DNA from: a virus
Length of the DNA stretch: 64,000 nucleotides
Virus record (IMG/VR): IMGVR_UViG_3300010413_000019
Span: 1-64,000 of that record
Reading direction: 5' to 3' (one strand)
A program made the translations under genes and the position numbers. Below are positions 2,410 through 36,830 of this stretch, piece after piece; the first letter of the stretch is position 1; each line of letters starts with the position of its first letter. Under the pieces are notes generated by a model that was given only the letters and a program-made list of their open reading frames with translations, was not told the origin of the DNA and made no database searches.

Positions 2410-2610
2410 TTACCACCTCCCCATTCTATGGCGCCAGTCATCGAACCTCTTATCTCTACGGGCTTCAGCAAAAGCAGCGCTACCTATAGTGAGGGTCCAG
2501 AGGACAACATAAATGATAGTTGGTGTAAGGACAAGCCACCAGCTCCAGTCAATAACGTCTGTGAGCTTGAGCACAATGAAGATCAGTGTGAGAATAGTTA
2601 GTACACTCAT
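2410..2610 (-). CDS. Small membrane protein between nrdA and nrdB
   Basis: 66 residues starting at the ATG that overlaps the nrdA stop (TAATG). Two hydrophobic helices (about residues 1-17 and 24-46) and a strongly basic C-terminus (RRDKRFDDWRHR). Position between the two reductase subunits suggests insertion of an extra small gene into the nrd unit. No recognised family. Confidence 0.6.
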   Translation of the reverse strand: MSVLTILTLIFIVLKLTDVIDWSWWLVLTPTIIYVVLWTLTIGSAAFAEARRDKRFDDWRHRMGRW

Positions 2611-4412
2611 TAGGCACATCCTACGCAGGTGTCTTCCATCAGCTCAGCAAGCGATGGATTTTCTGCTTTGATTTGTTTACGTTCATTGTTGGCCGTAGAC
2701 GCTCTGTTCACTGCATTGGATCGCAGATAGTAGAGTGACTTGATCTTCTTCTTCCATGCGAGGATATGCAGATCGGAGATGTACTGAACATGACTGTTAC
2801 CGGGAATGAACAGATTGAGCGACTGGCCTTGGTCAACGCGCGGCGAGCGGTCACCCGCAAACTCGATGACCCATTTCTGGTCTATCTCGAAGGCTGTCTT
2901 GAAGACATCCTTGATATTCTGTGGCATCCACTCGAGGTGCTGGACGGATCCGTTGTGGGCTTTGATTGACTCCCACTGCTCAGAGATCCATTTTTCAGCT
3001 TTATCTGTGAAACGCTCATCATCATAACCCGAAGCACGAATGTACTTCTCCAGGAACTTGTTACGGATTGGGAATGCCCCCTGCTTCACTTTTTTGGTGT
3101 AGGCATTGGTCACCCAAGGTTCGATACCGGAAGAGGCAATATTGCAGAGACTGGAGATCGACATTGTCGGGGCGATAGCCGTGACATGGATGTTACGTTT
3201 TGTACTTCCATTACGCTTTGCCATAGGACATGTCGCAGTACTGGTACTATAGTTATGCATGTCTGCCGACTCTTTGATCTGCTTGAAGATCTTGAGGTTC
3301 ACACCCTTCGCCATTGCTGATTCCCAGGGGATCATCTTTGACTGGAGGTATGAGTGGAAGCCCATGACACCGAGACCAATCGAGCGCTCGTCAATAGCAC
3401 CTGCTCTGGCTCTCTCGAAACCAGGCAGACCTTCTGTTTTGTCGATAAAATCCTGGAGCACGTTGTCGAGGAAATCGCTACAGTCCGCTATGAATTGATC
3501 AAAGCAGTCCTGATACTCATCCCAGTACTCAAGGTTGATCGAACCAAGACAACAAACACCGGAGTGCTTCTCATCAGTTCTGAGAGTGATCTCAGTACAG
3601 AGGTTGGACGTGACCACGGAGATATCTTCGAGTTTATATTCGGTTGGAGCCAGCTGGTTCACACGGTCGATGAATAGCAGATAGGGCTCACCTTTAAGTG
3701 TGGTTCGGACATTCAGGATCTTTTCCCACAGCTTTTTGGCCGAGATAGTCTTGACTACCTCACCTGTCTTGGGAGAGATAAGATCCCACGGTTGATTGAA
3801 GACCACCGCTTTCATAAAGACATTCGGGATTACTACCCCGTGATGTAGGTTCGGAGCACGTCTTGTCTGATCCCCGGTAGGGTTGCGCAGATCGATGAAC
3901 TCTTCGATCTCCGGGTGGGACACATGGAGATAGCTCGCTTCACTTGCGCGGCGTAGACCACCCTGGCTGATAGCCAGTGTAGATCTGTCTGATACACCGA
4001 GGAATGGGATAAGTCCGGAAGACTTACCACCGTGCTGGCCGACATTGGCGTTGACCTCTCGGACCTCGCTCCAGTCTGTACCTATACCCCCGCCGTAAGC
4101 CCCGAGGTTAAACGCTTCGTTGTAGTTCTGGAAGATAGAGGCCTTGTCATCTTTTACTGTCTTTGTGAAACAGGAGATAGGCAGACCCCTATCCGTACCG
4201 GCGTTAGAGCTGATCGGGGTAGACGGATGGAACCAGTAGTTGTAGAGGTAGCGCGACATACGCATTCTGTGCTCGGAATCATTGCAGTATGCTTCAGACA
4301 CACGCATGACCCACCCATCATAATCCTCACCTGGGAGGAAGTAGGTGTGTCCGTAAAGTTTTTGCGAAAACTCCGGGAGTCCGTGCCACCCGCGATTAGG
4401 CAGCCGGGTCAT
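2610..4412 (-). CDS. nrdA: Class I ribonucleotide reductase, alpha (catalytic) subunit
   Basis: 600 residues, shorter than E. coli NrdA because the N-terminal ATP-cone is missing, so dATP feedback through that domain is probably absent. Catalytic cysteines are visible: PISCF (substrate-site Cys), NLCTE (radical Cys) with its adjacent Glu, and CCLGS (second redox Cys). The C-terminus ends in CVGC, the redox-relay pair that thioredoxin or glutaredoxin reduces. Start codon overlaps the preceding stop (TAATG). Works with the NrdB encoded just downstream. Confidence 0.95.
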   Translation of the reverse strand: MTRLPNRGWHGLPEFSQKLYGHTYFLPGEDYDGWVMRVSEAYCNDSEHRMRMSRYLYNYWFHPSTPISSNAGTDRGLPISCFTKTVKDDKASIFQNYNEAFNLGAYGGGIGTDWSEVREVNANVGQHGGKSSGLIPFLGVSDRSTLAISQGGLRRASEASYLHVSHPEIEEFIDLRNPTGDQTRRAPNLHHGVVIPNVFMKAVVFNQPWDLISPKTGEVVKTISAKKLWEKILNVRTTLKGEPYLLFIDRVNQLAPTEYKLEDISVVTSNLCTEITLRTDEKHSGVCCLGSINLEYWDEYQDCFDQFIADCSDFLDNVLQDFIDKTEGLPGFERARAGAIDERSIGLGVMGFHSYLQSKMIPWESAMAKGVNLKIFKQIKESADMHNYSTSTATCPMAKRNGSTKRNIHVTAIAPTMSISSLCNIASSGIEPWVTNAYTKKVKQGAFPIRNKFLEKYIRASGYDDERFTDKAEKWISEQWESIKAHNGSVQHLEWMPQNIKDVFKTAFEIDQKWVIEFAGDRSPRVDQGQSLNLFIPGNSHVQYISDLHILAWKKKIKSLYYLRSNAVNRASTANNERKQIKAENPSLAELMEDTCVGCA

Positions 4413-4759
4413 TATGCGTCTTCTTTATTACCGAAGAGCTTACCGAATGCGGGTTTGTCAGCGAGGATGACTGTCTCATTTGCTTCATCGGAGACAGTTG
4501 CGCTGGCTGCGAAGTCGATACCATCTGCTTCTAGGTCGAACGGTGGAAGATCTTCTTCATCGATTGCTACATTTTGTGGATGTTTATCCATAGACATGTG
4601 ACGGAGATCCGTCATTGAAACTTCGGCGCGGTTACCCTGACCATTACGGCCCTGGACTACGCGCACATCGATGTCGTAAGTCGAAACGTCAAAGCCTTTG
4701 TTGCTCAGATAACACGTTACGGCTTCGACAAATTCGGCATCATTTAAAGTGATATCCAT
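4412..4759 (-). CDS. Hypothetical protein with SSB-like C-terminal tail
   Basis: 115 residues, ATG preceded by AAGGAT. The N-terminal half alternates short strands and helices, the middle is acidic, and the end (KLFGNKEDA) resembles the last residues of the phage SSB encoded at 5778-6512 (SLFGNSAA), possibly a shared protein-docking tail. Overlaps nrdA by one base. Function unknown. Confidence 0.65.
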   Translation of the reverse strand: MDITLNDAEFVEAVTCYLSNKGFDVSTYDIDVRVVQGRNGQGNRAEVSMTDLRHMSMDKHPQNVAIDEEDLPPFDLEADGIDFAASATVSDEANETVILADKPAFGKLFGNKEDA

Positions 4760-4768
4760 TGTTTATCC

Positions 4769-5113
4769 TTATCTGTTGTGATATGTTAAAGTTTCCCGGA
4801 TGTCCATGACTCTCGTATCGAGGTCGGCACCGACATCGCGGTACAGTTTGGCCCACGCCTCATTGAGTGGCGGGATACCTGATTTCATCATCGAGACAAC
4901 ATACCCCCGGCACACCTTAACGACCGGCTGAGAAGAGACATAGTCTTCAATTCCTTGGTTCTCGGATCCGGTAACAGCTTTGAGCTTGAGGTGGCAGGGG
5001 AAGATGATGCCTTGCATGATGACATTGCGGGATTCAGCGGTAAGAATACCTTTCGGTGATCCACGTAGAAAGCCGCACTCGTGGCAGACTTTACTACATG
5101 GTTCGATATTCAT
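4769..5113 (-). CDS. Hypothetical cysteine-containing protein
   Basis: 114 residues, AAGG before ATG. An N-terminal cluster C6, C10, C13 plus C40 and C68 may bind a metal. Otherwise no recognisable motif. Lies in the nucleotide metabolism part of the operon. Confidence 0.6.
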   Translation of the reverse strand: MNIEPCSKVCHECGFLRGSPKGILTAESRNVIMQGIIFPCHLKLKAVTGSENQGIEDYVSSQPVVKVCRGYVVSMMKSGIPPLNEAWAKLYRDVGADLDTRVMDIRETLTYHNR

Positions 5114-5122
5114 GGGTCTGCC

Positions 5123-5302
5123 TTACGCCGCTCTGTCCGCCAGAATAAGCTCTCTCTTCGCACCGGGAGCTGCTTTACGGATTGCCGTCAAGTGTGCTCT
5201 GATACGTCTTGATGAAGCCTTCGTTGGACGCTTCTCGTATTTTTCATGCTCTGCGATCAGAGCTTTTGCCTCATTGATGGCATCGTTAAAAAAAGTACTC
5301 AT
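5123..5302 (-). CDS. Small basic hypothetical protein
   Basis: 59 residues, below usual gene-caller limits. It fills the gap between the resolvase and the cysteine-containing protein and has AAGG about 9 bases before ATG. Helical, rich in Ala, Arg and Lys in its second half, which would suit nucleic acid binding. Its stop is 10 bases from the next gene's start. Confidence 0.6.
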   Translation of the reverse strand: MSTFFNDAINEAKALIAEHEKYEKRPTKASSRRIRAHLTAIRKAAPGAKRELILADRAA

Positions 5303-5310
5303 GATTAACC

Positions 5311-5778
5311 TTACTTGTGTTTTTGCGCACAGTAGTACGCGATCATCAGGGCATCTGAACGACCGTCCAGCAGCCCACCTTTTGGTCCGTGGATCTCAGC
5401 AGTCGGGAACAGCCGATGGGCAATTTCACCGACATCTTTCTTGATGTCTTTGCCTTTGGCCTTGACCCCGACATACTTCTGCCACTCTTTCGGTTTGGCT
5501 AGATCCAATCCAAGACCGTTTGCCCGGAAGATCCCGTGCATGAAGCCTGTGTTGAAACCGAAGTTGAAGTTGGATTTAGCGCTGGTACCGAAGATCGAGT
5601 GGACATCTTCGATCATCTGCATTTTGATATCGTATTTAGCGATTGAATCTATCAACCACTCAACGATGAGCACCGGGGAAGATGAGTTGTCCATGAACTC
5701 GATGTACTTTTCATCGGGAACATAGAGGCAGATAGCCCCTTTATCTCCCGGATCGCATCCGATGAACGCTGTAGCCAT
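5311..5778 (-). CDS. RuvC-like Holliday junction resolvase
   Basis: 155 residues, the usual RuvC size. RNase H-fold acidic residues are in order: D9 in GCDPG, a Glu in QMIED about residue 57, and a C-terminal D-x-x-x-D in LLDGRSDAL. RuvC-type enzymes cut four-way junctions; in phages they debranch recombining or replicating DNA before packaging. The start overlaps the SSB stop (TAATG), so both are translated together. Confidence 0.85.
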   Translation of the reverse strand: MATAFIGCDPGDKGAICLYVPDEKYIEFMDNSSSPVLIVEWLIDSIAKYDIKMQMIEDVHSIFGTSAKSNFNFGFNTGFMHGIFRANGLGLDLAKPKEWQKYVGVKAKGKDIKKDVGEIAHRLFPTAEIHGPKGGLLDGRSDALMIAYYCAQKHK

Positions 5779-6512
5779 TACGCAGCAGAGTTACCGAAGA
5801 GTGATTTCTTCTTTTCACCGGCTGGAGCTCCTGGAGCGCCTGCAGTACCGGCAGCTTTAGTGCCTTTGGCTTTGTTACGAGTCTCACCTTTGTTCTTCTC
5901 GATCCACTGAGGGAGGAAAGAAGCTTCAGTGCTGCCTGCGCGAAGCTCAGCCACTGTGCAGCCAGACTCAGCGTGGAAGATCTTGTCGATGACGTTCTCT
6001 TCACGAGTTTCACCTGTTGGCTCATAGGCACCGCTAATTTCGTTCTTCTTTGTCTTGTCGACAATCTGTTTGACGATACCAAGTTTGATAGGCTGACCGA
6101 TCATCTCGACAAGGACATCTTTCTCAGTCGGTACTTCTTTACCAGCTTCTTTGTCGTAAGCTTTTACCATCTTCTTCTCTGGCGTAAGCTCTGCGATCTC
6201 CTGACCTGTAGTAAGGAGTGCAAGGGCATTTGCCTGGCTGAAGCCTGGAAGGTATTGCTTGTTACCCTCTCTGTCAACGTAGTAGTTGAGCTGACCTTTG
6301 GCTGTACCGCCGGTCATCCAGAAAGTCTCTTTAATAGTCTCTCCGTCTGCACCTTTACCTGTGAAGACAAGACCATAAGCGCCACCGCTAGATAGGTCGA
6401 TGTAAGCCATGTCTACGACCATGTCGTAAGCGTCTGTGTTGAGTAGTTTGAACCCTCCTAGAGAGTCACCTTGTTCTTTGATTTTGTCATCTGTTTTAAG
6501 CATTGCTAACAT
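5778..6512 (-). CDS. Single-stranded DNA-binding protein, N4 gp45-like
   Basis: 244 residues from the ATG with AAAGGA; the longer frame runs into the upstream gene. Length, position after the RecA-like ATPase and overall character match N4 SSB (about 265 residues). The end is a low-complexity Ala/Gly/Pro/Lys linker and a short hydrophobic tail. N4 SSB protects replication intermediates and also activates host sigma70 RNA polymerase at late promoters, which fits the TATAAT promoters before the late genes here. Assignment rests on synteny and sequence character, no motif is diagnostic. Confidence 0.7.
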   Translation of the reverse strand: MLAMLKTDDKIKEQGDSLGGFKLLNTDAYDMVVDMAYIDLSSGGAYGLVFTGKGADGETIKETFWMTGGTAKGQLNYYVDREGNKQYLPGFSQANALALLTTGQEIAELTPEKKMVKAYDKEAGKEVPTEKDVLVEMIGQPIKLGIVKQIVDKTKKNEISGAYEPTGETREENVIDKIFHAESGCTVAELRAGSTEASFLPQWIEKNKGETRNKAKGTKAAGTAGAPGAPAGEKKKSLFGNSAA

Positions 6513-7673: not shown

Positions 7674-9830
7674 TCATGCTGACTCCAGCTCTTTTTTCGT
7701 GACAGCTTTTGTGACAGAGATCATCACAGTGGAGTTGATCTCCTCTTCCGGGACCCCGTCAGGGATCTTGGCATTGAAACTCAGCAGTGCGCTGCGGATC
7801 TGTTCAAGGTTGTAGTTGCTGTCGACAAGGGCCATTGCATACTTGTGCATCATGTTGTTGCGGTTACCCTCACCGGTATTGTTCATGAACCAACGCTCAA
7901 GATTGGTAAGAGAACCAATCCGATCATTCTTGGCTCGCTGATCATCAGACTTTTTGGTCTGTGGGATGAACAACATCGCGTCAAGCATCTCACCCTCGTT
8001 ATAGTGATATTCACCTGGGTGGGACATCCATTTACGTGCCGGGTCTTTGGTCGCCGTATCTACTTCGAATGGGAGCCACTCAAAGACATTCTGCATAAAT
8101 GCGGAGTAGTCTTTGGCATTGAGTTTCAATGTATGGCTCAGTGGGAAGATGATGCGGAACCGGTTGTGGGCTTCCGTATGGCGTTTGGTCGTAGCGAACA
8201 GACAGGTGTAATCTTTCAGCAGCAGCTTGGCTGTGTCCAGGGATACACCGGAGTCGATATCAAGGATCACAAGATTGAATCCCTCTATCACCTTCTCTCC
8301 AGATCGGTGGCCATCACGGAAGTGGTGTGCCGTATAGTGGAGGTCCGGGGTACATGTCAGGACATGCATCTCATCCCACCGGGCGATCTGCGGCTGATAG
8401 TTGTAGGCGATATCATCGCTGTACGAGAACATCAGCTCGTTGAGATTGGTCTCCTGTAGGGATTCACCCCGGAGGAACTCGATACCGTCACTGTATGACT
8501 TCTTGATAACGATGTTGTTCTTGTAGCCATAGGCGATAGCCAGACTCATCATATCTCTACGCTGGGCCTCTGAACCTTTATAGAAAGGTAAATCCTCTAC
8601 CAGGTCCACTTGCGTGACCTCACGGCCAACGCTGGAGATATATTTGGCCAGTTTCACGTATGGCTTGTCTCGAGTCAGGATCTTGCGGAATGCTTCACCT
8701 GAATCTTCGACCAGTTTGATGGCACAGTGAAGGTGATCCATAGAGATCTCCGCACTTCCATCGATGAAGGCATAGGTGCCAGCCAGTTTAAGCGCACGGA
8801 AGTAGCGGTGGCTCAGTTCAGCTTTCAAGACCTCCTCATGCTCTTGCATGGTCTCGGCCTCTTTGACACACTTGAGCTGGTAATCGATCAGTTCAAGACT
8901 TACATCTTTAGTCATCGTCAGCTCTTTACCGAAGTTCTTCGGATCGGCCAAGTCTTCGAGTCTTGCAGCAGCCGTATCCAGATGCAGCGAAGATGTCGTA
9001 TCGGTGAGCATGTCGTACATCTCTTCCGGAGTGAGGTCGGCTTTCTTGGATACCCTGTCTGTGTAACCGAAGAGTAAGCGTCTGGCATAACCAGTCTCGA
9101 GCATCTGGAAGAATTCCTGCTCAAGCCGGCTGCCGTCCAGAAGTTTTGTCGGTGTACCGAATAACATCATGTTGGTCGGGGTACGGCCGGTGATCTCTTC
9201 GTTACGCTTGTTTTCTTGAGTGTTCTTGGTAAGTTTCTGTTTGATCTTACCCACATCGTACAGCTCGATAAAGGTGTTCAGTACTTCGAGGTTGTTGGCA
9301 AAGTTCGATCCGACTTCATCCATCTCGAAACACATCGAACCTGCATCAGCCATTAACAGTTTGTGGCGCATCTGCTTGATTGCTGCAGGGGTACCGCTGT
9401 CAAATGAGAATGCCAGGGCGCCAAGAGCATGGAACTCTTTCTGTACCTCTACCAGTTTCTCATCGGGATCGGTAGAAGCTTTCTTGGCTCGGGCCACTGC
9501 TATCTTTGTCAGATTGTCATTTGCCATCAAGGGGAAAGTCTCGGACATGAATCTATCACGGAATCGACCAAGGACTTGATCCTCGAGGATGTTTGTGGAT
9601 AGACCTTTACCGAAACCACTTGGAGCCAGGTTCAGAGCATAGATGTTGATCGGGATAGGTCCGCGGTCATGGGTAACGATACTGGCTCGCATCATGGATG
9701 CTACCTTGGCCATGTAATAGGCCACCATCACCCGGAATACCAGCGGATTGTCGCTCTGTGTCTTTTTGACGAGTACTTTTACGAGTTGCTCAGATATGGG
9801 GTAATAATCCATATCGGCTACATTTTTCAT
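7674..9830 (-). CDS. Primase/helicase-like replication protein, N4 gp43-type
   Basis: 718 residues from the third codon of the frame, chosen because AAAAGGA sits 6-7 bases upstream. The N-terminal half is a DUF3987-like ATPase with the P-loop APSGFGKGLS at residues 69-78. The C-terminal third looks like an archaeo-eukaryotic primase core: LDIDSG (DxD, about residue 523), HNRFRIIF and a later Asp/Arg-rich segment. It would synthesise primers and unwind DNA for the family A polymerase. Domain order is unusual (ATPase before primase), but size and location match N4 gp43. Confidence 0.7.
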   Translation of the reverse strand: MKNVADMDYYPISEQLVKVLVKKTQSDNPLVFRVMVAYYMAKVASMMRASIVTHDRGPIPINIYALNLAPSGFGKGLSTNILEDQVLGRFRDRFMSETFPLMANDNLTKIAVARAKKASTDPDEKLVEVQKEFHALGALAFSFDSGTPAAIKQMRHKLLMADAGSMCFEMDEVGSNFANNLEVLNTFIELYDVGKIKQKLTKNTQENKRNEEITGRTPTNMMLFGTPTKLLDGSRLEQEFFQMLETGYARRLLFGYTDRVSKKADLTPEEMYDMLTDTTSSLHLDTAAARLEDLADPKNFGKELTMTKDVSLELIDYQLKCVKEAETMQEHEEVLKAELSHRYFRALKLAGTYAFIDGSAEISMDHLHCAIKLVEDSGEAFRKILTRDKPYVKLAKYISSVGREVTQVDLVEDLPFYKGSEAQRRDMMSLAIAYGYKNNIVIKKSYSDGIEFLRGESLQETNLNELMFSYSDDIAYNYQPQIARWDEMHVLTCTPDLHYTAHHFRDGHRSGEKVIEGFNLVILDIDSGVSLDTAKLLLKDYTCLFATTKRHTEAHNRFRIIFPLSHTLKLNAKDYSAFMQNVFEWLPFEVDTATKDPARKWMSHPGEYHYNEGEMLDAMLFIPQTKKSDDQRAKNDRIGSLTNLERWFMNNTGEGNRNNMMHKYAMALVDSNYNLEQIRSALLSFNAKIPDGVPEEEINSTVMISVTKAVTKKELESA

Positions 9831-15267: not shown

Positions 15268-17870
15268 TTTTTATCCTTTTCTTCATTTAGTCCATGCTCT
15301 ATAAGGAACTCTTCGATCTCTTTAACCGACAGGTGGTTTTTGAGCGTGTACTGCTTGTCCCAGGACTTACCGATATCAAGTTCGGCTTCCATGAGGACCT
15401 CTTCACTGTAGATGCTCGGATGAGCATTCCAGCGCATCTCTTCGGTGAGAGTGTCATTGAGCCACTTGATCACTTCTGGTTCATTCTTGATGATGAAGTA
15501 TCCGGCATCGTGGATTGTGTTGGCAGCGAAGATCTTGTCCTCGAAGCCTGAACCCTTGAGGCGCTTCTCTGTGGCGATAAGAGCACGGTTCATCAACTGT
15601 CCCCAGGACTGGGTCACAGCATTTGAAGCACTGCGTCCCTCAGAGGCAGCTTCGTAAGGTGTGGACTCTTTCCCTACCAGTGTTTTGGCGAGGATGGGGG
15701 TGCGAAGGCGTAAGCCGAAAGCACACTCGACGAAGCCGTGCTCAGATCCGAATTCAGTGTTCTTCTTGGTGAAGTCACCCAGACCGCTGTATAGCTCGTG
15801 GTATCCGATCTCGATGGCTCTGGCCACATCTTCCGGTAGACCGATGTTCGTGACAAGGGTTTTCCATGTCCCTCCGTACTGGAGAGCAAAGGATGGGGCT
15901 TTAGCCTGGTCTCGGATATCTTTCTGCTCTTTCTTGAACCGATTGATGTCTTCGACCGAGTTGATGTCGTACTGGCGCACAACTTCAGGGTCGATGTAGA
16001 CACCTTTTACTGTTACCGGTTCCTTGAGTTTGGAGAAGAATGCGATGGCTCTGAGTGAGTGGCCGTCAGCACCTTCGGAGAACTCTTTGGTCTTCATCGG
16101 GTCACCTGACAGGATCGCACCGATACGGTCTTCAAGTGCAGCAAAGTCTGCCCCGGCAATGAGCCACCCATCGGGAGCCACGAAGCAGGACTTGATCAGC
16201 TTGGCATACGTGGAACCGGAAGGGATGTTCTGCATGTTCGGGCTGTTTGATGATAGGCGGCCGGACTGGGTACCCCCGAGTTTGAGGTTACCGTTGAGCC
16301 AGACCGTACCGTCATTACGTGTGAAGGCCATCTCCTCAAAGTTCTTGATGAAGTTATCGAGGATGATGTCCACTTTGGAGATATCGATCAGAGCGTTAAG
16401 CACTATCTCCTGCTCCTCCGTTTTGGCGAGGACCTTCAATTTGGCAAGTGTCTTGGCTCCGGTAGCAGGCTCTTTTGAATCTGTCTTGTCTATGACCGGA
16501 AAATCCCAGAACTCATACAGCAGCTTCTGCTTCTGTTTGGTGGATCCAGGATTGAAAGTGACATGTCTGAACTCATCGATGGATTTCATCTTCTTCTTGA
16601 GCTTGTTGTTGGCAGTCACCATTGCTTCGCGCTGCAGTAAAAAGTTGAAGCGCTTGATCGCCGGGGTATTCTCGAGGTCGTACATTGCGTTGTAGCGGAT
16701 GACCTCCAGTTGATCTCGAGTGCTCTTGACCTTGTTCAGATCCATCGGCAGACCGATGAGCATCATCTTGAGCAGCACATTGAGGGACGGCTGCATGATC
16801 TCTTCGTAGATCTTCAACTGATCATCGGCTATCACGGTCGGCATGTACTTGTCATGCACATACCATGTAGCCAGACTGTCAACGAGGTTGTACTCGAGTA
16901 GGGTATCCATCTCGATCTTGGTGATATCGTTGATGTCCTCCAGGGCATAGTTCCCGGTGAACTCAAATGCGTTCTCTTTGAGACCCAGCTTGACATCTGC
17001 CGTGGAGTTTAGAGCCAGATAGGTGAGCAGCATTGTGTCCTGCACATCTTTGAACACCTCAAGGCCGTGGTGCATACCGACGTAATCGGTAGAGTGCTCC
17101 ATGAAGAGGGTGTAGATCAATACCTTGACATCATAGAGAGAGTTGTGGAACCATACCTTACCCTTGTAGGTCTCGAAGAAGACCTTGAGTACTTCTTTGA
17201 TTGGTTCGGTGATGGGGAAAGCCACACCGTTGTGTTGATCCCAGGCAAAGGAGATGGTTCCCAGCTCGGCCCTCTCGAATCTCAGACTGGTCGCTTCGAT
17301 ATCACTGGTGAGTGCCGGGATGTCCAGAAGTGAGAGTAGGGTGGTTGCAATAGCTTCAGGTTCTCTCGGATAGTATGCAGAGTGTATAATGTCTTTACCG
17401 AGTTCTTTGAATGTCCCGGCTTTATGCTGAACCAAAGTGTAAAGAGACATGTCGATCTTCTCTTGGACCACCGGGTTATAGAAGACCGCTTGATAGTTTG
17501 AAGATAAGATCACTTTGATATGTTCGTATCCGGGAAGCTTACAGCTCTTGACATAACCGAAATGTGGTTCGGCCTTACGTTCACCGGTAAGAACTTTGAA
17601 GTAGTTACCGTCTGCAACTAAGATCGTATCAATACCGAGATGTTCGATAGATTTAAGTAGAGTTGCGAGGTACTCCTTGATAGTTGACACTTTTACTTTC
17701 TTGGCATCATCATATTTCAGAGTGAAGGCCACGATCTGATCTTTTGAGATGTCACTCTCTATCGGCTTGACGTAAGTGTCGTACAAAGGTTGCATCTTAA
17801 AGCTGGACTCTTTGATAAGCAGAGCAATCGAGAGATTGTCCGAAGAGTCACCAAATAGAATATGTCGCAT
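15264..17870 (-). CDS. Family A DNA polymerase with 3'-5' proofreading domain (N4 gp39-like)
   Basis: 868 residues, matching N4 polymerase in length. Exonuclease: D190-x-E192 (SDIEA), N243/D247 (FHNSLYD) and Y327-x-x-x-D331. Polymerase: motif A D575 (GADFAALEDR), motif B R653 to K657 (RDQAKAPSFALQYGG), motif C H787-D788 (TIHDAG), where the usual Glu is Ala. No 5' nuclease domain. I start at the ATG at 17870; the frame is open to an ATG at 17951, but the extra 27 residues are not polymerase-like and would reach into the operator-like repeats. Confidence 0.93.
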   Translation of the reverse strand: MRHILFGDSSDNLSIALLIKESSFKMQPLYDTYVKPIESDISKDQIVAFTLKYDDAKKVKVSTIKEYLATLLKSIEHLGIDTILVADGNYFKVLTGERKAEPHFGYVKSCKLPGYEHIKVILSSNYQAVFYNPVVQEKIDMSLYTLVQHKAGTFKELGKDIIHSAYYPREPEAIATTLLSLLDIPALTSDIEATSLRFERAELGTISFAWDQHNGVAFPITEPIKEVLKVFFETYKGKVWFHNSLYDVKVLIYTLFMEHSTDYVGMHHGLEVFKDVQDTMLLTYLALNSTADVKLGLKENAFEFTGNYALEDINDITKIEMDTLLEYNLVDSLATWYVHDKYMPTVIADDQLKIYEEIMQPSLNVLLKMMLIGLPMDLNKVKSTRDQLEVIRYNAMYDLENTPAIKRFNFLLQREAMVTANNKLKKKMKSIDEFRHVTFNPGSTKQKQKLLYEFWDFPVIDKTDSKEPATGAKTLAKLKVLAKTEEQEIVLNALIDISKVDIILDNFIKNFEEMAFTRNDGTVWLNGNLKLGGTQSGRLSSNSPNMQNIPSGSTYAKLIKSCFVAPDGWLIAGADFAALEDRIGAILSGDPMKTKEFSEGADGHSLRAIAFFSKLKEPVTVKGVYIDPEVVRQYDINSVEDINRFKKEQKDIRDQAKAPSFALQYGGTWKTLVTNIGLPEDVARAIEIGYHELYSGLGDFTKKNTEFGSEHGFVECAFGLRLRTPILAKTLVGKESTPYEAASEGRSASNAVTQSWGQLMNRALIATEKRLKGSGFEDKIFAANTIHDAGYFIIKNEPEVIKWLNDTLTEEMRWNAHPSIYSEEVLMEAELDIGKSWDKQYTLKNHLSVKEIEEFLIEHGLNEEKDKK

Positions 17871-18216: not shown

Positions 18217-19440
18217 ATGGGTCGCACAACAAAACCTCTCAGCGATGCGGAGGTCCGCAAAGCAAAATCCCTCGAAAAGATGTATAAGCTCTTTGACGGA
18301 GCGGGGCTCTATCTCGAGGTGAAGACAAATGGCCGTAAGGTATGGCGTACCGACTTCCGATGGGAAGGCAAGACCAAATCATACACGATCGGAGACTATC
18401 CGACAGTGACTCTCTCTTCGGCCCGTATAACGTCCCAGGAGGTCCGTGAGGATGCCAGGAATGGCATTGATCCAGTACAGAAGAGAAAAGGCTCTGAGGG
18501 CTCTGAGAATGCTGTATCCATACAGACCTTTAAACAGGTTGGAGATGAGTTCATGGAACTCAAATCATACACGTACAGTCTGTCACACTACATGAAGCAG
18601 CACGGCCGGTTGAACAACTACGTCTACCCCTACATCGGATCCAGGGATATCAGGGAGATCACCAAGCAGGACATCATTGATCTGATCAAGAATGTCCAGA
18701 AGGTAGAGACTAAGACCACCCGGCAGACTCAGAAGCATGAGACAGCCAAGAGAGTCTTTCAGTTGATCTCACAGATCTACCAGTACGCGGTGCACCATGA
18801 CATCGTCATTGATGACATCCCCCGGAGGATAGAGTTCAGTTCAGTCATCCCCAGGATCACCCCGCAGAAGCTAAAGGCGATCGTTGAACTCAACGGGGTC
18901 AGGATGATGTACGGGATGCTCTCGGAGTACCAGGGAGACTTCACAACGAGGAACGCATTGAAGTTCCTGGCTCTATCTGCACTGCGGCCGGGGAACATCC
19001 GGAACATGAAGTGGGAGTACATCGACTTCCAGAATGATGTGGTCAACTTCCCAGGGGAAGCTATGAAGATGAAGGAGTCATACAGACTCCCTCTCACTTC
19101 CACACTGATCCAGTTGATCGATGAGATGAAACCCCTCACCCGGTACCATTCCGAGTATGTCTTCTGCTCGCCTATCGCTCCGAGCAAGCCGATGTCCGAG
19201 AACACTCTGAACTACGCCCATAAAAGAATTGGGATCGCAGACCATAATGCCCACGGCTGGAGAAGCTCGTTCTCAACCCTCTGTTATGAGAAGCAGAAGG
19301 ATCACGGCTTCGGAGCTGAAGTAATAGAGAGCCAGTTGGCACACTCACTGGGGAATGCGGTGAAGACTGCCTATCTCAGGAGTGATTTCATCGTTGAGAG
19401 GCAGCTGCTGCTCCGATGGTGGGAGAAACTGATCACGTAA
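18217..19440 (+). CDS. int: Tyrosine-type integrase
   Basis: 407 residues, the size of P4-type prophage integrases, with the N-terminal DUF4102-like domain (about 5-90), a SAM-like core-binding domain (about 100-200) and the catalytic domain. Catalytic residues are all present: R257 (SALRPGN), H346-x-x-R349 (HGWRS), H376 (LAHSLG) and Y386. It is the only long plus-strand gene in the left half and sits in its own control region. It would recombine attP with a bacterial attB, commonly a tRNA gene for this family. Unexpected in an N4-type phage. Confidence 0.93.
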   Translation: MGRTTKPLSDAEVRKAKSLEKMYKLFDGAGLYLEVKTNGRKVWRTDFRWEGKTKSYTIGDYPTVTLSSARITSQEVREDARNGIDPVQKRKGSEGSENAVSIQTFKQVGDEFMELKSYTYSLSHYMKQHGRLNNYVYPYIGSRDIREITKQDIIDLIKNVQKVETKTTRQTQKHETAKRVFQLISQIYQYAVHHDIVIDDIPRRIEFSSVIPRITPQKLKAIVELNGVRMMYGMLSEYQGDFTTRNALKFLALSALRPGNIRNMKWEYIDFQNDVVNFPGEAMKMKESYRLPLTSTLIQLIDEMKPLTRYHSEYVFCSPIAPSKPMSENTLNYAHKRIGIADHNAHGWRSSFSTLCYEKQKDHGFGAEVIESQLAHSLGNAVKTAYLRSDFIVERQLLLRWWEKLIT

Positions 19441-19645
19441 GGTTTAGGGTAATTGACCAGTGAGACGCAGCATACCATTCCATCCAGATACCCAGCACGA
19501 ACATCGTAATAACAAATAGTCGCTCCAACCATTGTATGGTACCCCCAAAGGCAGTCCAGATAGTGACTGTAACTATGGGCTGTATGATTAGGTAGAGGCC
19601 TAATAGATGAACAACAAGTAACCCTATGATAATAAGAAATGTCAT
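19433..19645 (-). CDS. Small membrane protein
   Basis: 70 residues, AAGGAG before ATG. Two hydrophobic segments (about 3-30 and 41-60). Its end overlaps the integrase 3' end by 8 bases in convergent orientation. No family recognised. Confidence 0.6.
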   Translation of the reverse strand: MTFLIIIGLLVVHLLGLYLIIQPIVTVTIWTAFGGTIQWLERLFVITMFVLGIWMEWYAASHWSITLNLT

Positions 19646-29956: not shown

Positions 29957-30032
29957 TGGCCAATGCGGGTGGACTCGAACCACCAACCTTCGGATTTGGA
30001 ATCCGGTGCTCTACCAGTTGAGCTACGCAAAG
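29957..30032 (-). tRNA. tRNA-Trp (anticodon CCA)
   Basis: Full cloverleaf on minus: D arm GCTC/GAGC, anticodon loop TTCCAAA, T loop TTCGAGT and encoded CCA. The acceptor pairs CTTTGCG with CGCATTG, leaving two adjacent U-U mismatches, so charging or processing may be weak. Confidence 0.85.
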
Positions 30033-30068: not shown

Positions 30069-30326
30069 TCAGGGCCTATGTTCACCATCCCGGACTCGAA
30101 CCGGTGACGCCCTAACGGGATAAGTCATAACCCCGATGTTGACTTTTTTGAGCCGCTGTCCATACAGCTTATGGTGCATACTAAGACTTGGTTCCCAATT
30201 TCTACCGTGCCGCTTGGGGCGTCTCTTGTAGTTCCAAGTCTCATACGATTCGTATTGTTGTCTGTACCATGCCCGGTACAGTGGGTTTGGAGTATTAATG
30301 AATTTTACATTTCGAGGCTGATCCAC
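30069..30326 (-). CDS. Possible basic protein (GTG start)
   Basis: 85 codons from GTG with AGGGG upstream. Rich in Tyr, Trp, Arg and Lys in the middle (YRAWYRQQYESYETW). Codon use is plausible, but the 3' end coincides with a tRNA T-arm-like sequence and no homologous family is recognised, so it may not be translated. Confidence 0.4.
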   Translation of the reverse strand: MDQPRNVKFINTPNPLYRAWYRQQYESYETWNYKRRPKRHGRNWEPSLSMHHKLYGQRLKKVNIGVMTYPVRASPVRVRDGEHRP

Positions 30327-30456
30327 CCCTACTGGCCGAGCTTAATCGGAGTCCTAGTTAACCACTCAAAGTTAGGACTGCATACTTACCTCCAATGAGA
30401 TAACTATGCAATATAAGATTGATTGTGTATTTTCCAGAGCAGAGAGGGGATCCTCT
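30327..30456 (-). promoter_or_regulatory. Segment with two stems after the SPFH gene
   Basis: AGAGAGG/CCTCTCT with a GGAT loop at about 30437-30455 lies directly after the SPFH stop, a likely terminator or processing hairpin. AGTCCTA/TAGGACT lies near 30350-30380. No gene seen. Confidence 0.4.
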
Positions 30457-31878
30457 CTACTTCTTGACTGATAGGTCAAGATCAAGGTCTTTGGCAGCCT
30501 TGAGGCCCATCATAGTGAGCATAGTGTTGGCATAAGATGCACCTCCGCCGACTGAACCCTTGTCCCCACCGCCGATAACGGTAGCAGGTACATTGATTTT
30601 AGCCATAGCATCGGCACGGTATTTCTCAGCCTGGAGCCATGTATCAAGCTTTTGCTGCAGGGCGTTGTCCGCCTGCAGGATCACACGTTTTTTGTGTGCC
30701 TGAGCATCAGCAAGGGCTTTGATTTTCTTGGCTTCGATAAGAGAGCGCTCATAGCGTTCCTGCTCAGCTTTCTTCTCTAGTTTTGCAACTTCGAGGTTCT
30801 TCTGGGCTTCGATGGTTTGCTTTTTCTTTTCAGTCTCAGCGATCGTTGTCTCTTTGATCTGGTTCACAAGTTGCTTAGCTTCAGCCTCGGCTACGAGTTT
30901 TTGACCGTTTGCCTTGGCAGCTTCAGCTTCCAATAGGGATTTACGGCGATCGTTCTCTGCAAGTGCAGCAGCTGCTTCCGCATCACGTTGTTTACCGATC
31001 AGGGTACGGACCTTTTCTTCTGGGTTCACGTATGTGACGCGGGCAGTAACGACTTTCAGGTTGTAGTTCTCGATATCATCAAGACCTTGACGCACCGGTT
31101 GGCCGTTCTTATCCATAACAAGTTTGACAACTTCATTGATCTGATCAGATTGCTCTGTCTTGGATCCATCACGGTTAATGATCTCACCATCGACTACCAT
31201 CTTGTTGCCCTGGCGTGCACCAGTGCTGTTTTGAACTTCCTGTGTCACTTGAGTCTTATACAGACCGTTCATGAACTGGTCAGAGAAGTATTCATCGAAG
31301 TCTGAACCACGTTTAGTGATGTACTCTTGGATCGACATCAGACGAGCTGAGTTGATGGCTGCAGAGTAGAAAGTAGACTTGAGCAGGTTGTTGACAAGAG
31401 CTTCATCCGATCCGAACTCTTTATGGATCTTCAGCATCCCGTCACGACTTGTAGGCAGTTCCACACGGGCGATACCGTAGAAGTCTGCTTTCGCTGCATC
31501 AGAGAAGCGGATAGTCGGAGATGCGATATGATCAGCAGTTGATACCCGCTCTTCGTTACCGCCATCTTGTCCCGCACGTTCGCCAGTGAACATAGGAGTA
31601 GACACGGCTACGACTTTGTCATATTCATACACATTACCGAGAGCGCTTAACTTAATACCTGGGTCGGTGATAACAGATAAATGCCCTGTAGGGTACTGCA
31701 CAACGTAGTTCTTATCTGAATCGGCAATGAACACGATCGAAGTGATCATAAACAGTGCACCGATTGAGATACCGATTATTTTGAATGTCTTTTTGTATGC
31801 TTCACTGATAAAAGAAATCAGTGGGATAACAAATACCGCTAAAGCAATAACGATAAGACCAAAAATAAATGTTCCCAT
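30457..31878 (-). CDS. SPFH/band-7 (flotillin/prohibitin-like) membrane protein
   Basis: 473 residues from the ATG with AAGGAA. Two TM helices (about 3-22 and 31-52), an SPFH domain (about 55-270) and a long coiled coil rich in Ala, Glu and Lys (about 290-430), then a Gly-rich C-terminus. SPFH proteins build ring-like membrane microdomain scaffolds and modulate FtsH-type proteases. In a phage it could reshape the host membrane, protect phage proteins or affect lysis. Encoded next to the giant RNA candidate. Confidence 0.8.
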   Translation of the reverse strand: MGTFIFGLIVIALAVFVIPLISFISEAYKKTFKIIGISIGALFMITSIVFIADSDKNYVVQYPTGHLSVITDPGIKLSALGNVYEYDKVVAVSTPMFTGERAGQDGGNEERVSTADHIASPTIRFSDAAKADFYGIARVELPTSRDGMLKIHKEFGSDEALVNNLLKSTFYSAAINSARLMSIQEYITKRGSDFDEYFSDQFMNGLYKTQVTQEVQNSTGARQGNKMVVDGEIINRDGSKTEQSDQINEVVKLVMDKNGQPVRQGLDDIENYNLKVVTARVTYVNPEEKVRTLIGKQRDAEAAAALAENDRRKSLLEAEAAKANGQKLVAEAEAKQLVNQIKETTIAETEKKKQTIEAQKNLEVAKLEKKAEQERYERSLIEAKKIKALADAQAHKKRVILQADNALQQKLDTWLQAEKYRADAMAKINVPATVIGGGDKGSVGGGASYANTMLTMMGLKAAKDLDLDLSVKK

Positions 31879-31919
31879 TTTTTTCCTTGGGTGTTGGGTT
31901 TGTTTAACCCCGGAGTGAT

Positions 31920-32756
31920 CAGCGTGGATCCTCACACACCGGGTTGATTCCGACCTGCGGTATTGACTTGCATCGAAACAGATTGGTCATCTGCATTAGG
32001 TTCAAGTGGGTTTCCCCTCCCTGATACAAGCGGTGCATTAAACCGGCAGGAACCAGAAGAGTTCTCCCTCCTTTACCATTCAGAGGGCTAGATTCGTAGT
32101 TGTCTTTGCCCGTTGGCTACGTCCACAACTATCTCGATCTATCGGTTTTAAAAACGGGTGGATTAATAGTTACCACCATTACCCATGTCTCGGACGCATG
32201 GTTGACCACAACTGCCTATCGAGTTGCCAGACTAAGGAGTTGGTAAGGCTCCAAGGAACACACCGCACCTGTGGCGGATACACCTTGCTATCGTACATAG
32301 CAAGTCCAGTTAAGCAGCTTCATACATGTACGACATTTGGCTGCTAGATGTGCTCACTGGAACCTTATGGCGCCCGCACAAGGGTTTGAACCTCGTGCCT
32401 ATCGGTAGCGTGGTCGATAGGATTGTCGAGCCTCTTCGGAAGAGCTACGCTGCCCCTATTCCAAGGGATGCTCTCTACGACAACAACGCAAACGTGGCAA
32501 TACCGTTCCGATTCAGATTGATCAACATCTTTCACGTATTAAGCTACCACTGGGATTGTTGAGCCGTCCTACTATACTCTACGGGCATATACATACTCCC
32601 GGTAACCGACCGGGCTTGGTTCATTTGATATCGTTCAATAGAGGTACCTTACCAATAACTAAAACGTCCTATCTATCCTCAAGGAAGGGTGTTGGTCCGA
32701 AGACCTCAAAGGCTGGTAAGACCTCTATGAACCTGGGTCACCAGTCAGGCTCATAG
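31920..32756 (-). ncRNA. Candidate giant structured noncoding RNA (about 840 nt)
   Basis: No credible gene fits here, yet the region contains many stems. Examples: TAGTTGT 32097 with ACAACTA 32125; CTCGAT 32133 with ATCGAG 32218; CTTGCTA 32284 with TAGCAAG 32298; CCAGT 32306 with ACTGG 32356; GCACAAGG 32376 with CCTCGTGC 32391; CCTATCG 32398 with CGATAGG 32415; CAACAA 32481 with TTGTTG 32556; TAGAGGT 32639 plus TTACC 32649 with GGTAA 32715 plus ACCTCTA 32721. The 7-base loop TCGTACA (32291-32297) is complementary to TGTACGA (32327-32333) in the loop of the next stem, a kissing pair. Size, phage setting and nearby tRNA recall GOLLD and ROOL RNAs. The strand is inferred from neighbouring genes; wobble pairs give a mixed answer. 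Confidence 0.6.
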
Positions 32757-32761
32757 CGACC

Positions 32762-33130
32762 TTACAGGCCACATATAAGTGACAGAGATCCCCTTTCAGT
32801 GATCTTGATCTGCCACAGTGCTTTTGCGTACCCCATCATAAAGATGAGTTGTTTCTCCGACTTATGCACATACTTGGGGTTAACTGAGTAAACCCGTACA
32901 ACATAGTCGTTCTCACGGAGAATAACGCGCTCTTGTTTGCTAAACCAGGCGCGCAGCTGTCTCTTGCTCTTGAATCCAAAGAAATAGCGGTAAGCATCGG
33001 CACTCTCCAAGATATCTTCGAAGTCTTCCCCGAAAGTTGGGTGTTCGGCGTCTGCATGATTGAAGAGCGCAACTTTATCGGCATAAGGACCATATCCATC
33101 TGTCCTATGTTCGACACGGTAGATCAGCAT
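32762..33130 (-). CDS. Hypothetical phage protein
   Basis: 122 residues, AAAGGAT before ATG. Begins LIYRVEHRTDGYGPYAD, with a helical FGFKSKRQLRAWF and a strand-rich end. The opening resembles small phage proteins of unknown function. The next thing downstream is the structured RNA region, beginning within a few bases of its stop. Confidence 0.65.
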   Translation of the reverse strand: MLIYRVEHRTDGYGPYADKVALFNHADAEHPTFGEDFEDILESADAYRYFFGFKSKRQLRAWFSKQERVILRENDYVVRVYSVNPKYVHKSEKQLIFMMGYAKALWQIKITERGSLSLICGL

Positions 33131-33263: not shown

Positions 33264-33293
33264 CCTGTTGCATTTAAGGGCGCGGATGCGCCC
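33264..33293 (-). promoter_or_regulatory. Candidate early hairpin promoter 1 (GGGCGC-GGAT-GCGCCC)
   Basis: Stem GGGCGC at 33278-33283, loop GGAT, GCGCCC at 33288-33293, flanked on the left by GCATTTAA. Read on minus: stem, ATCC loop, stem, then TTAAATGC. This matches the layout of N4 virion polymerase promoters, where a short stem with a 3-base TCC/GGA loop sits about 11 bases before the start. Confidence 0.6.
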
Positions 33294-33302
33294 AGAGGTT
33301 AT

Positions 33303-33341
33303 TTAACAGTCCGCTGGACTGCTACCGAAACCTGATTTCAT
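33303..33341 (-). CDS. 12-residue leader-like peptide with ideal ribosome site
   Basis: AGGAGGTGCCCT precedes ATG; the frame encodes 12 residues and stops. Its end forms the hairpin CAGTCC/GGACTG (33307-33321) next to TTATTTAA. Could be a leader peptide or just a decayed gene start. Confidence 0.35.
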   Translation of the reverse strand: MKSGFGSSPADC

Positions 33342-33355
33342 AGGGCACCTCCTAG

Positions 33356-33406
33356 AAAAAAAATCGTGGACAAGCCTCACACCCTCTTTTGGGTGCTATC
33401 TTGTCC
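33356..33406 (-). terminator. Strong intrinsic terminator directly behind promoter 2
   Basis: On minus, GGACAAG/CTTGTCC (33400-33406 with 33368-33374) encloses CACCC/GGGTG, followed by four bases and eight T (33356-33363). With promoter 2 it would yield an RNA of only about 50 nt. Confidence 0.7.
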
Positions 33407-33430
33407 TGCATTTAAACCCACGGATGTGGG
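33404..33430 (-). promoter_or_regulatory. Candidate early hairpin promoter 2 (CCCAC-GGAT-GTGGG)
   Basis: Stem CCCAC 33417-33421, loop GGAT, GTGGG 33426-33430, left flank GCATTTAAA, nearly the same flank as promoter 1. It lies right after the stop of the gene at 33433-33645. Confidence 0.6.
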
Positions 33431-33654: not shown

Positions 33655-34683
33655 TTATGATAACATGTATTCACTCTTACGGATGTCCTCCGCAAGGTCA
33701 TAACTGAACTTCTTCAACTGAACATCTGTACCGGTAATCTCGCTGATGATATCGCTGAGCAGGTTGCTCTCTGCAATTTCAGCCAAGATGTCACGGTAGA
33801 AGTCCATCACCTTTGGCATGTGGTTCGGATGGCATGTGAAGGCATCATGGATATGTGCTACTTCAAAGTCTGCACGTCTGATAATCTCACGTGCGACATA
33901 CCCGTCAATGCTGTGGATGATGTTGGGCGCCAAGGATGTTTTACGGTCACTTGGTTGGTTCGGGTAGAAGCGGTATGTGAACTGCATGTGATTGAGTTCA
34001 TCCACTTCAATACGTGCATCGACTTGGTCGACTACGTTTACCTTTGCCACGTGACCGTCTGGCAATGTCCACTGGTGGAAGTATGCGAACGGGTCCCAAG
34101 CATTGTTGATGACCTGCATGACAGCCTCTGCACCCGTGAACTTCTCCATGAGAATCTCGTAGAACATGTTAAGCTCCATCGTATCCTCACCAAGTAGCTC
34201 TTTAGGCTTGGCCTTAGAGTTATAGTAGTGAGTCATGATAGGCTTTTTGATGTAGCTACGGGTGAACATAGGGTTCTCGCCGGCTTTAGCGATAAGTGCG
34301 TCCGATACGGCTGTATAGGCGTCATTACGCTGGCCGTTGTTGATAAGGTTTACAGCTTCGGCTGTCTTCTTACACCCTGAGAGTGCGGCCATGATTTGTA
34401 GCCCACTTGCAGTGGCATCCATGAACATGTTGTGGTTGATAGGCTTACCGTCTACCGCATCGGCAAAGGCATAGCAGGCCTTGCGGAACATCAAAGGCTC
34501 TTCAGCCTGAGATGCCCACTCATCAAGATTGTTCAGGATATCTGTTTGGTTCTGGTTTACCCACTGGATGCGGGTTTCGAACAACTCTTTGTCAAGGCCG
34601 TAGGTATTGGCCATATCGATTTTCAACATGTCGAAGCCTGTGAAGCGCTCCGCGAATGAGATAGGTTTTGGTATTGCTGACAT
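33655..34683 (-). CDS. T7-like RNA polymerase, C-terminal subunit (N4 RNAPII gp16-like)
   Basis: 342 residues carrying the catalytic core. Motif A has D89 (FMDATASGLQ), motif B has the YIKKPIMTHYYNSK segment at 144-157 (fingers Lys and Tyr of T7 polymerase), and motif C has D280 (HIHDAF). It lacks the N-terminal half of the enzyme, which is encoded by the gene at 34846-35754. N4 also uses a two-subunit polymerase for middle genes, so the split is ancestral rather than a mutation. It would transcribe the replication block. Confidence 0.9.
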   Translation of the reverse strand: MSAIPKPISFAERFTGFDMLKIDMANTYGLDKELFETRIQWVNQNQTDILNNLDEWASQAEEPLMFRKACYAFADAVDGKPINHNMFMDATASGLQIMAALSGCKKTAEAVNLINNGQRNDAYTAVSDALIAKAGENPMFTRSYIKKPIMTHYYNSKAKPKELLGEDTMELNMFYEILMEKFTGAEAVMQVINNAWDPFAYFHQWTLPDGHVAKVNVVDQVDARIEVDELNHMQFTYRFYPNQPSDRKTSLAPNIIHSIDGYVAREIIRRADFEVAHIHDAFTCHPNHMPKVMDFYRDILAEIAESNLLSDIISEITGTDVQLKKFSYDLAEDIRKSEYMLS

Positions 34684-34845: not shown

Positions 34846-35754
34846 CTATGCTACCCCTGTAAGTATCTCTGCTTTGGCAAACTGTAGGATTGCCTTCTTG
34901 TACTCCGAGCCCTGAAGGTTGATATCATAGCCCTGTGAGTACTGGCGCCCGCGCTTGTCGAACTTCCACACGAAATAGAACTGGTTCTCATTGTCCAGTT
35001 CATACTGGTATACACGGTCTGATTGAGCACACCGCGCATTGTGCTGTTCGATTTTACGCAGTTCGACAGGATCCGTGATGTCTCCAGTCTCCTTGGGAAG
35101 TTCCTTCTCCGCGAGCATACATGTATTGAGTTCCCAAGCAATGCTTTGGAGTTTGTTCAACACATCAAGACTCTGTTTCATACCGTGGTAGTTCTGCTCG
35201 CCGAGGATGGCTGAGCTGTCTTCGAGAAGTAGTCCCCCATGTCTGTTGTCTGTCCAAGGACGTGGTTCACACGTCATCGGTGGCAGGTACATAGCCATGT
35301 GGATTTTCTGAAGAGTCTCATCTTCGAGTTTGAAGAATGGTTTGATGACTGCCGTATCATGGTCGTGCTCCGGACTGAAGGCATGAAGTATCTCATACAC
35401 TCCGGCATCCTTGCACACTGCAAGTATCTCTGCACCACACTTGACTGCATCAAGTTGCTCGAGACCGATACGGTGACCTAACATCGTGGCTACCGCCTGG
35501 ATAGGCGTGACACTGTCTAACGTACTGAGGACCGAATAGAACAGCTCAACAGCTATCTCTTCTGGTTCCATAGATATCTTGGCGATACGCTCATCCTTGG
35601 ATTTGAAATACTCCTTACCAAGGTACTCACGCACTGCAACTACACATTGCTGATAGTTCGGGTTACCGTTAAGGTCTCCGATGTCCTGTTTAATCCACAC
35701 TGGGATATTCTTTTTACTGTAAGTCTCTTCGACTGTTAATTGAGTTTGATACAT
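34846..35754 (-). CDS. T7-like RNA polymerase, N-terminal subunit (N4 RNAPII gp15-like)
   Basis: 302 residues. The C-terminal part FYFVWKFDKRGRQYSQ contains the D-x-x-G-R motif of single-subunit polymerases, and the last residues (AILQFAKAEI) match the stretch just before the break. The first residues of the other subunit continue the fold (KPISF...FDMLKI). The shared ribosome leader AAGGACATCCTC precedes ATG. Confidence 0.85.
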   Translation of the reverse strand: MYQTQLTVEETYSKKNIPVWIKQDIGDLNGNPNYQQCVVAVREYLGKEYFKSKDERIAKISMEPEEIAVELFYSVLSTLDSVTPIQAVATMLGHRIGLEQLDAVKCGAEILAVCKDAGVYEILHAFSPEHDHDTAVIKPFFKLEDETLQKIHMAMYLPPMTCEPRPWTDNRHGGLLLEDSSAILGEQNYHGMKQSLDVLNKLQSIAWELNTCMLAEKELPKETGDITDPVELRKIEQHNARCAQSDRVYQYELDNENQFYFVWKFDKRGRQYSQGYDINLQGSEYKKAILQFAKAEILTGVA

Positions 35755-36586: not shown

Positions 36587-36644
36587 GAGGATGTCCTTAA
36601 AGTTATGTAATGAGATGCATTGCACTCACCCATCACTAAAAAGA

Positions 36645-36678
36645 AAAATAGAAAAATAAAGAGGTCTCCCCTCTTATG
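36645..36678 (-). terminator. Intrinsic terminator behind early promoter 3
   Basis: On minus, AAGAGG/CCTCTT (36670-36675 with 36659-36664) followed by TATTTTTCTATTTTTC. About 50-70 bases downstream of the hairpin promoter at 36730, with only a 13-codon frame in between. Confidence 0.65.
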
Positions 36679-36717
36679 TATTTCCTATCTATAAGTGTAG
36701 GTGTAGTGTAATATAAG

Positions 36718-36749
36718 TATCTTCATTATCAGTGCACGGATGTGCACTG
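36718..36749 (-). promoter_or_regulatory. Candidate early hairpin promoter 3 (CAGTGCAC-GGAT-GTGCACTG)
   Basis: An 8-bp perfect stem with loop GGAT (36738-36741), left flank AT-rich (TTCATTAT). Same loop and orientation as promoters 1 and 2. Confidence 0.55.
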
Positions 36750-36799
36750 TATATGTATAATATATATATCCCCAAGTGGAATTATAAGAGCATATACTT

Positions 36800-36830
36800 A
36801 GAAAAAAATAAAATGACAGCTTATGCTGTC
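36800..36830 (-). terminator. Intrinsic terminator of the tiny-gene cluster
   Basis: On minus, GACAGC/GCTGTC (36825-36830 with 36815-36820), loop ATAA, followed by ATTTTATTTTTTT. The stop codon of the last tiny gene is in the loop. Confidence 0.75.

Follow-up and report, generated by a model that had tools for sequence, protein, structure and literature searches.

A candidate tandem array of CCA-ended tRNA-like RNAs in a gene-free region of an N4-like phage

The tRNA clusters of phages T4 and T5 contain stable structured RNAs that are not tRNAs and whose function is unknown. GOLLD, a large RNA also of unknown function, has a 3' region that is universally conserved. ROOL and GOLLD are both phage RNAs and are frequently found near tRNA islands (PMC12286853). 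A gene-free region of about 880 bases in an N4-like phage resembles GOLLD in its phage setting, its nearby tRNA, its comparable length and its lack of a known function, and it shares with ROOL the phage setting, the nearby tRNA and an elaborate structure. Membership in GOLLD, ROOL or OLE, which an earlier note on this DNA had raised, is rejected: cmscan against Rfam, performed on both strands with the gathering score as well as with E values up to 10, returned no covariance-model match to any of them, and at the loose thresholds no family was recovered for the gene-free region, the tRNA-Trp stretch or relatives. Unlike GOLLD, the domains of the region close separately and carry tRNA-type ends. 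Like YrlA, a bacterial Y RNA with a tRNA-like module, the region would represent a noncoding tRNA mimic, but the only YrlA match was sub-threshold and overlapped tRNA-Trp, with none in the gene-free region. The T4 and T5 RNAs are alike in description only, being structured RNAs other than tRNAs that sit within tRNA clusters of phages. The region is non-coding, has a tRNA-type 3' end on the minus strand and contains two significant closed domains; we hold, with about even confidence, that an early transcript is cut here into a tandem series of small tRNA-like RNAs with CCA ends.

The window, that is, the whole stretch of DNA analysed, comprises 64 kb of a virus record of 71,681 bases. The phage was assigned to the N4-like group because it carries genes for RNA polymerase 1 (34846-35754) and RNA polymerase 2 (RNAP2, 33655-34683) together with portal, major head protein, primase and DNA polymerase genes. 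A tyrosine integrase is encoded at 18217-19440, suggesting that this N4-like phage is temperate. The early genes are on the minus strand, and the gene-free region sits inside the early block with the following neighbours.

33278-33430, minus strand: three hairpins with loops of 3-4 nt, each followed by TTAAAT, upstream of the gene-free region.
32762-33130, minus strand: phrog_1106 gene, the upstream neighbour of the gene-free region.
31879-32761, minus strand: gene-free region and proposed RNA array in the early transcript, with no coding signal, family or Rfam match.
30457-31878, minus strand: SPFH-type gene, the downstream neighbour, with its start codon directly after the gene-free region.
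29957-30032, minus strand: tRNA-Trp, downstream of the gene-free region on the same strand, found by ARAGORN and Rfam.

Phage proteins resembling the SPFH-type product are annotated as stomatin/SPFH, and a gene for an ATPase (phrog_2376), which is MoxR-like in relatives, also lies downstream beyond the SPFH-type gene. The three upstream hairpins, which we take to resemble hairpin promoters of the N4 type, may by this analogy be early promoters. The gene-free stretch before tRNA-Trp (30090-30450, minus strand) contains a worn or unusual tRNA-like element, with CACCAT...ATGGTG around a T-arm, as well as a domain closed by AGACTTGG/CCAAGTCT. The strongest local folding signal of the window was located at 36601-36830 (z −6.9 on the plus strand and −6.4 on the minus strand), where coding is sparse, close to the divide between early and late genes.

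The earlier note had seen no credible gene at 31920-32756, and this was borne out for about 31,879-32,761. The mean codon log-odds ranged from −0.49 to −0.76 over all six frames of the region, compared to +0.34 for RNAP2 and +0.41 for the SPFH gene in their true frames. The ORFs of the region were without a Pfam match and yielded one PHROG match only, which at E 0.099 is not credible. No complete cloverleaf was detected in the region either; ARAGORN and Rfam list three tRNAs in the window, all of them elsewhere. The elements distinguished within the region are as follows.

32714-32764, minus strand: unit 1, a 50-nt hairpin domain, GTAAGGTC-G-CTATGAGCCTG...CAGGTTCATAG-A-GGTCTTA-CCA, folding z −3.93.
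32638-32728, minus strand: long-range helix of 15 bp with a 2-nt bulge, ATAGAGGT+CTTACCA with TGGTAAG+ACCTCTAT, from the helix list.
32368-32586, minus strand: unit 3, a possible large tRNA-like unit, acceptor GCCCGTA (32586-32580) with TGCGGGC (32378-32372).
32376-32398, minus strand: T-arm of 8 bp, GCACGAGG-TTCAAAC-CCTTGTGC, with CCA at exact tRNA spacing.
32370-32368, minus strand: 3' end of unit 3, discriminator G and CCA, after the acceptor strand TGCGGGC.
32241-32367, minus strand: unit 4, a 126-nt domain closed by TAAGGTTCCAG/TTGGAGCCTTA and ending in A-CCA, folding z −4.31.
32284-32335, minus strand: hairpin CTTGCTAT-GTACG-ATAGCAAG and a complementary TCGTACA segment, from the sequence and the helix list.

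The T-arm-like hairpin that the earlier note had pointed out at 32376-32398 exists on the minus strand and is part of a genuine tRNA-type 3' end: from 32398 to 32368, the T-arm, a 7-nt acceptor strand, the discriminator and CCA follow each other in the exact spacing of a tRNA. When both strands of the 64 kb were searched for the canonical T-arm pattern (G-TTCRANY-C with at least 5 bp), four were found, three belonging to the tRNA genes and the fourth being 32398-32376 on the minus strand. Other N4-like loci, amounting to 1.9 million strand-bases, contained 20 T-arms, 12 of which had CCA at tRNA spacing, about the number of tRNA genes listed by ARAGORN in the same loci. The element at 32398-32368 is therefore very unlikely to have arisen by chance; its geometry fixes the strand as minus. 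The earlier note had left the strand unsettled while counting the 32376 stem in favour of minus. An RNA of the region would be read on the minus strand, as judged by the T-arm/CCA geometry and the G-U pairs of the long stems.

When the 5' half of an interrupted tRNA was sought, the one good partner was GCCCGTA at 32586. All seven pairs of GCCCGTA/TGCGGGC are possible, with the reservation that a partner in this range is not uncommon by chance. Five of the seven acceptor pairs occur in the minimum-energy fold of 32369-32586, whose z of only −0.67 is no better than shuffles. Unit 3 is similar to tmRNA in that an acceptor and T-arm domain carries a large insert replacing the other arms, whereas it has no ARAGORN or Rfam match and its proposed acceptor is without the G3-U70 pair. 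The idea that a group I intron interrupts a tRNA was rejected, since Rfam gave no match and the insert falls short of the length required.

Unit 4 starts one base past the CCA of the T-arm element and is closed by a stem of 11 bp. None of 200 shuffles was as stable on the minus strand, folding was weaker on the plus strand (z −2.4), and the unit was among the lowest 2% of window positions in the folding survey. The 7-nt complement between 32291-32297 and 32327-32333, which the earlier note had taken for a kissing interaction, is present; judged from the letters, the hairpin loop and the TCGTACA segment could possibly make a kissing or pseudoknot contact inside unit 4. Unit 1 forms the 5' end of the gene-free region, its first bases overlapping the stop codon of the upstream gene, ends in A-CCA and was matched in stability by 1 of 200 shuffles. 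The sub-domains that folded better than chance were 32240-32367 (z −4.3) and 32710-32770 (z −3.9), both on the minus strand, and these values are somewhat flattering because the borders were picked by eye. In the background survey, 11 of 640 window positions reached a z of −4 or lower.

No nucleotide homologs of the gene-free region were found in phages and plasmids or among the N4-like loci compared; a weak match to L055 had an E of 1.1. Relatives collected through RNAP2, SPFH and phrog_1106 reached at best 53% identity in RNAP2, and a recognisable counterpart of the region was absent from them. In bacterial genomes, the RNAP2 scan yielded 100 chance candidates without a relative and says little, and the scan for the unit pattern yielded zero matches; pattern scans with Vibrio unit motifs returned the same phages only, or nothing. 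A motif common to the window and the Vibrio units (CTTAAY...GGTAT) was dropped, the frequency of CTTAA being about that expected.

By primase, the nearest named phages are N4-like phages of Vibrio. In D497 about 1.2 kb of sequence between tRNA genes, and in K477 about 1.9 kb, has been annotated chiefly with tiny hypothetical CDSs; SBP1 and pVa5 have shorter gene-free stretches. None of these stretches is annotated as RNA, and they are described as structured stretches here. Strings of closed units, several with an N-CCA end, were recognised by eye at these positions.

2505-4406 of K477 (L018): string of closed units.
18219-19470 of D497 (L016), minus strand: string of closed units.
8330-8960 of SBP1 (L017): string of closed units.

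One hairpin loop in the strings seemingly pairs downstream, and compensatory change was seen between units (GGACTA/TAGTCC, GGTTA/TAACC). Stems followed by N-CCA, true tRNAs counted, numbered nine each in D497, K477 and SBP1 compared to 1.9, 2.3 and 1.1 in shuffles; the window region had three on the minus strand compared to 0.82 in shuffles (p ~0.055) and none on the plus strand. The Vibrio units are backed by compensatory change. The unit shared by K477 and pVa5 kept 97% of its pairs with six pairs changed on both sides, exceeding nearly all shuffles and every slid version. In the unit shared by D497, K477 and SBP1, 5 of 29 pairs were compensatory, including three in the T-arm stem, and the duplicated units of D497 and K477 had six compensatory pairs. 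Units have also been gained and lost (D472 and K477 relative to D497). A T-arm-bearing unit was about 73% identical between K477 and Bakedbeans, an unrelated Vibrio phage of 155 kb. In Bakedbeans (L083), tRNA genes flank two gene-free gaps of roughly 1 kb each (3534-4532 and 4767-5809), one of which has the K477-shared unit. A circularly permuted tRNA-like element was observed at 5355-5450 of L018 and 17192-17270 (minus strand) of L016, arranged as T-arm and 3' acceptor strand, linker hairpin, then 5' acceptor strand and D-arm; in D497 it gave a sub-threshold match to beta_tmRNA.

The window region and the stretches of D497, K477, SBP1 and pVa5 share an N4-like genome, an early block and a position at tRNA genes or beside a MoxR-type ATPase, and both have closed units, T-arms outside recognised tRNAs and closing stems followed by N-CCA, but the window region is without detectable sequence or covariance-model similarity to them. 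Covariance models of the Vibrio V and U10 unit types did not match the gene-free region, hits in it being at chance level or confined to a T-arm. The link between the window and the Vibrio phages is one of architecture and setting, not of demonstrated homology.

Decayed tRNA genes and functionless spacer would provide another explanation, in which the T-arm and CCA are the remnant of a tRNA without its 5' half, left as phage tRNA clusters turn over. Such decay would agree with the finding of sequence conservation nowhere in the searches, with the second worn tRNA-like element adjoining tRNA-Trp and with the lack of a structure excess over the region as a whole, but it sits poorly with an intact T-arm and CCA, with an adjoining domain (unit 4) that is significantly folded and also CCA-ended, with the compensatory changes in comparable Vibrio units and with a spacer of 880 nt, unusual for such a dense gene block. 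We consider it doubtful.

The earlier note had read the region as folding like one giant phage RNA. The stems it named were found where it had placed them, whereas an overall excess of structure was not: folding of the whole region was ordinary compared to shuffled sequence (z −1.14 on the minus strand and −0.62 on the plus strand), as was the average folding of 100-nt windows across it, and helices of at least 7 bp were at chance level, with 20 on the minus strand (16.3 ± 3.9 in shuffles) and 13 on the plus strand (16.8 ± 3.4 in shuffles). Among its long-range pairs, TAGAGGT+TTACC with GGTAA+ACCTCTA is part of a 15-bp inverted repeat, whereas CTCGAT/ATCGAG and CAACAA/TTGTTG, at 6 bp shorter than the helices counted, carry no weight. 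A large ornate RNA of about 850 nt, of a new class akin to GOLLD and ROOL and with the T-arm as an internal T-loop module, would suit the length, the phage setting and the nearby tRNA, and the 15-bp repeat spans two of the proposed units; as the helix at 32638-32728, this repeat is an alternative to unit 1 and competes with its fold. A structured non-coding RNA on the early strand is plausible, but a single giant one is unlikely in our judgement, given the ordinary folding of the whole, the missing Rfam match, significant structure only in separately closed, CCA-ended domains, and an exact tRNA 3'-end geometry with CCA that would be unexpected in a T-loop module.

That the region is a long untranslated leader or a regulatory element of the SPFH gene, for which the position directly upstream of its start codon would speak, or a set of unrecognised very small genes is highly improbable: the coding log-odds are negative in every frame, Rfam gives no known riboswitch or leader, and the significant domains lie more than 350 nt from that start codon.

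The array of small tRNA-like RNAs is favoured over decayed tRNA genes or one giant RNA because the CCA-ended domains close separately and the Vibrio analogues gain and lose units. We infer that the region is transcribed, that the transcript is processed and that the units belong together. The minus-strand early transcript would include tandem small structured RNAs, three of them ending in CCA; one would bear a true T-arm with its acceptor strand, and the unit after it would begin one base past that CCA. Host RNase P and 3' processing enzymes would cut this transcript into stable RNAs of tRNA size or larger. The products would most likely act as tRNA mimics, for instance as decoys or competitors for host enzymes of tRNA cleavage, modification or charging; the decoy role is speculative and, in our opinion, quite unlikely.

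Annotation usually leaves long gene-free stretches next to tRNA genes of phages empty or assigns tiny hypothetical genes to them. It is a tentative proposal, with less chance of being right than wrong by a wide measure, that the genomes of N4-like phages carry arrays of short tRNA mimics that contain pseudoknots and end in CCA. These would form a class of phage RNA not represented in Rfam, would be produced by the tRNA-processing enzymes of the host and would occupy or mislead host factors that act on tRNA, such as defence nucleases. If families of CCA-ended tRNA mimics do reside in such stretches, the known struggles between phage and host that centre on tRNA would gain a counterpart made of RNA.
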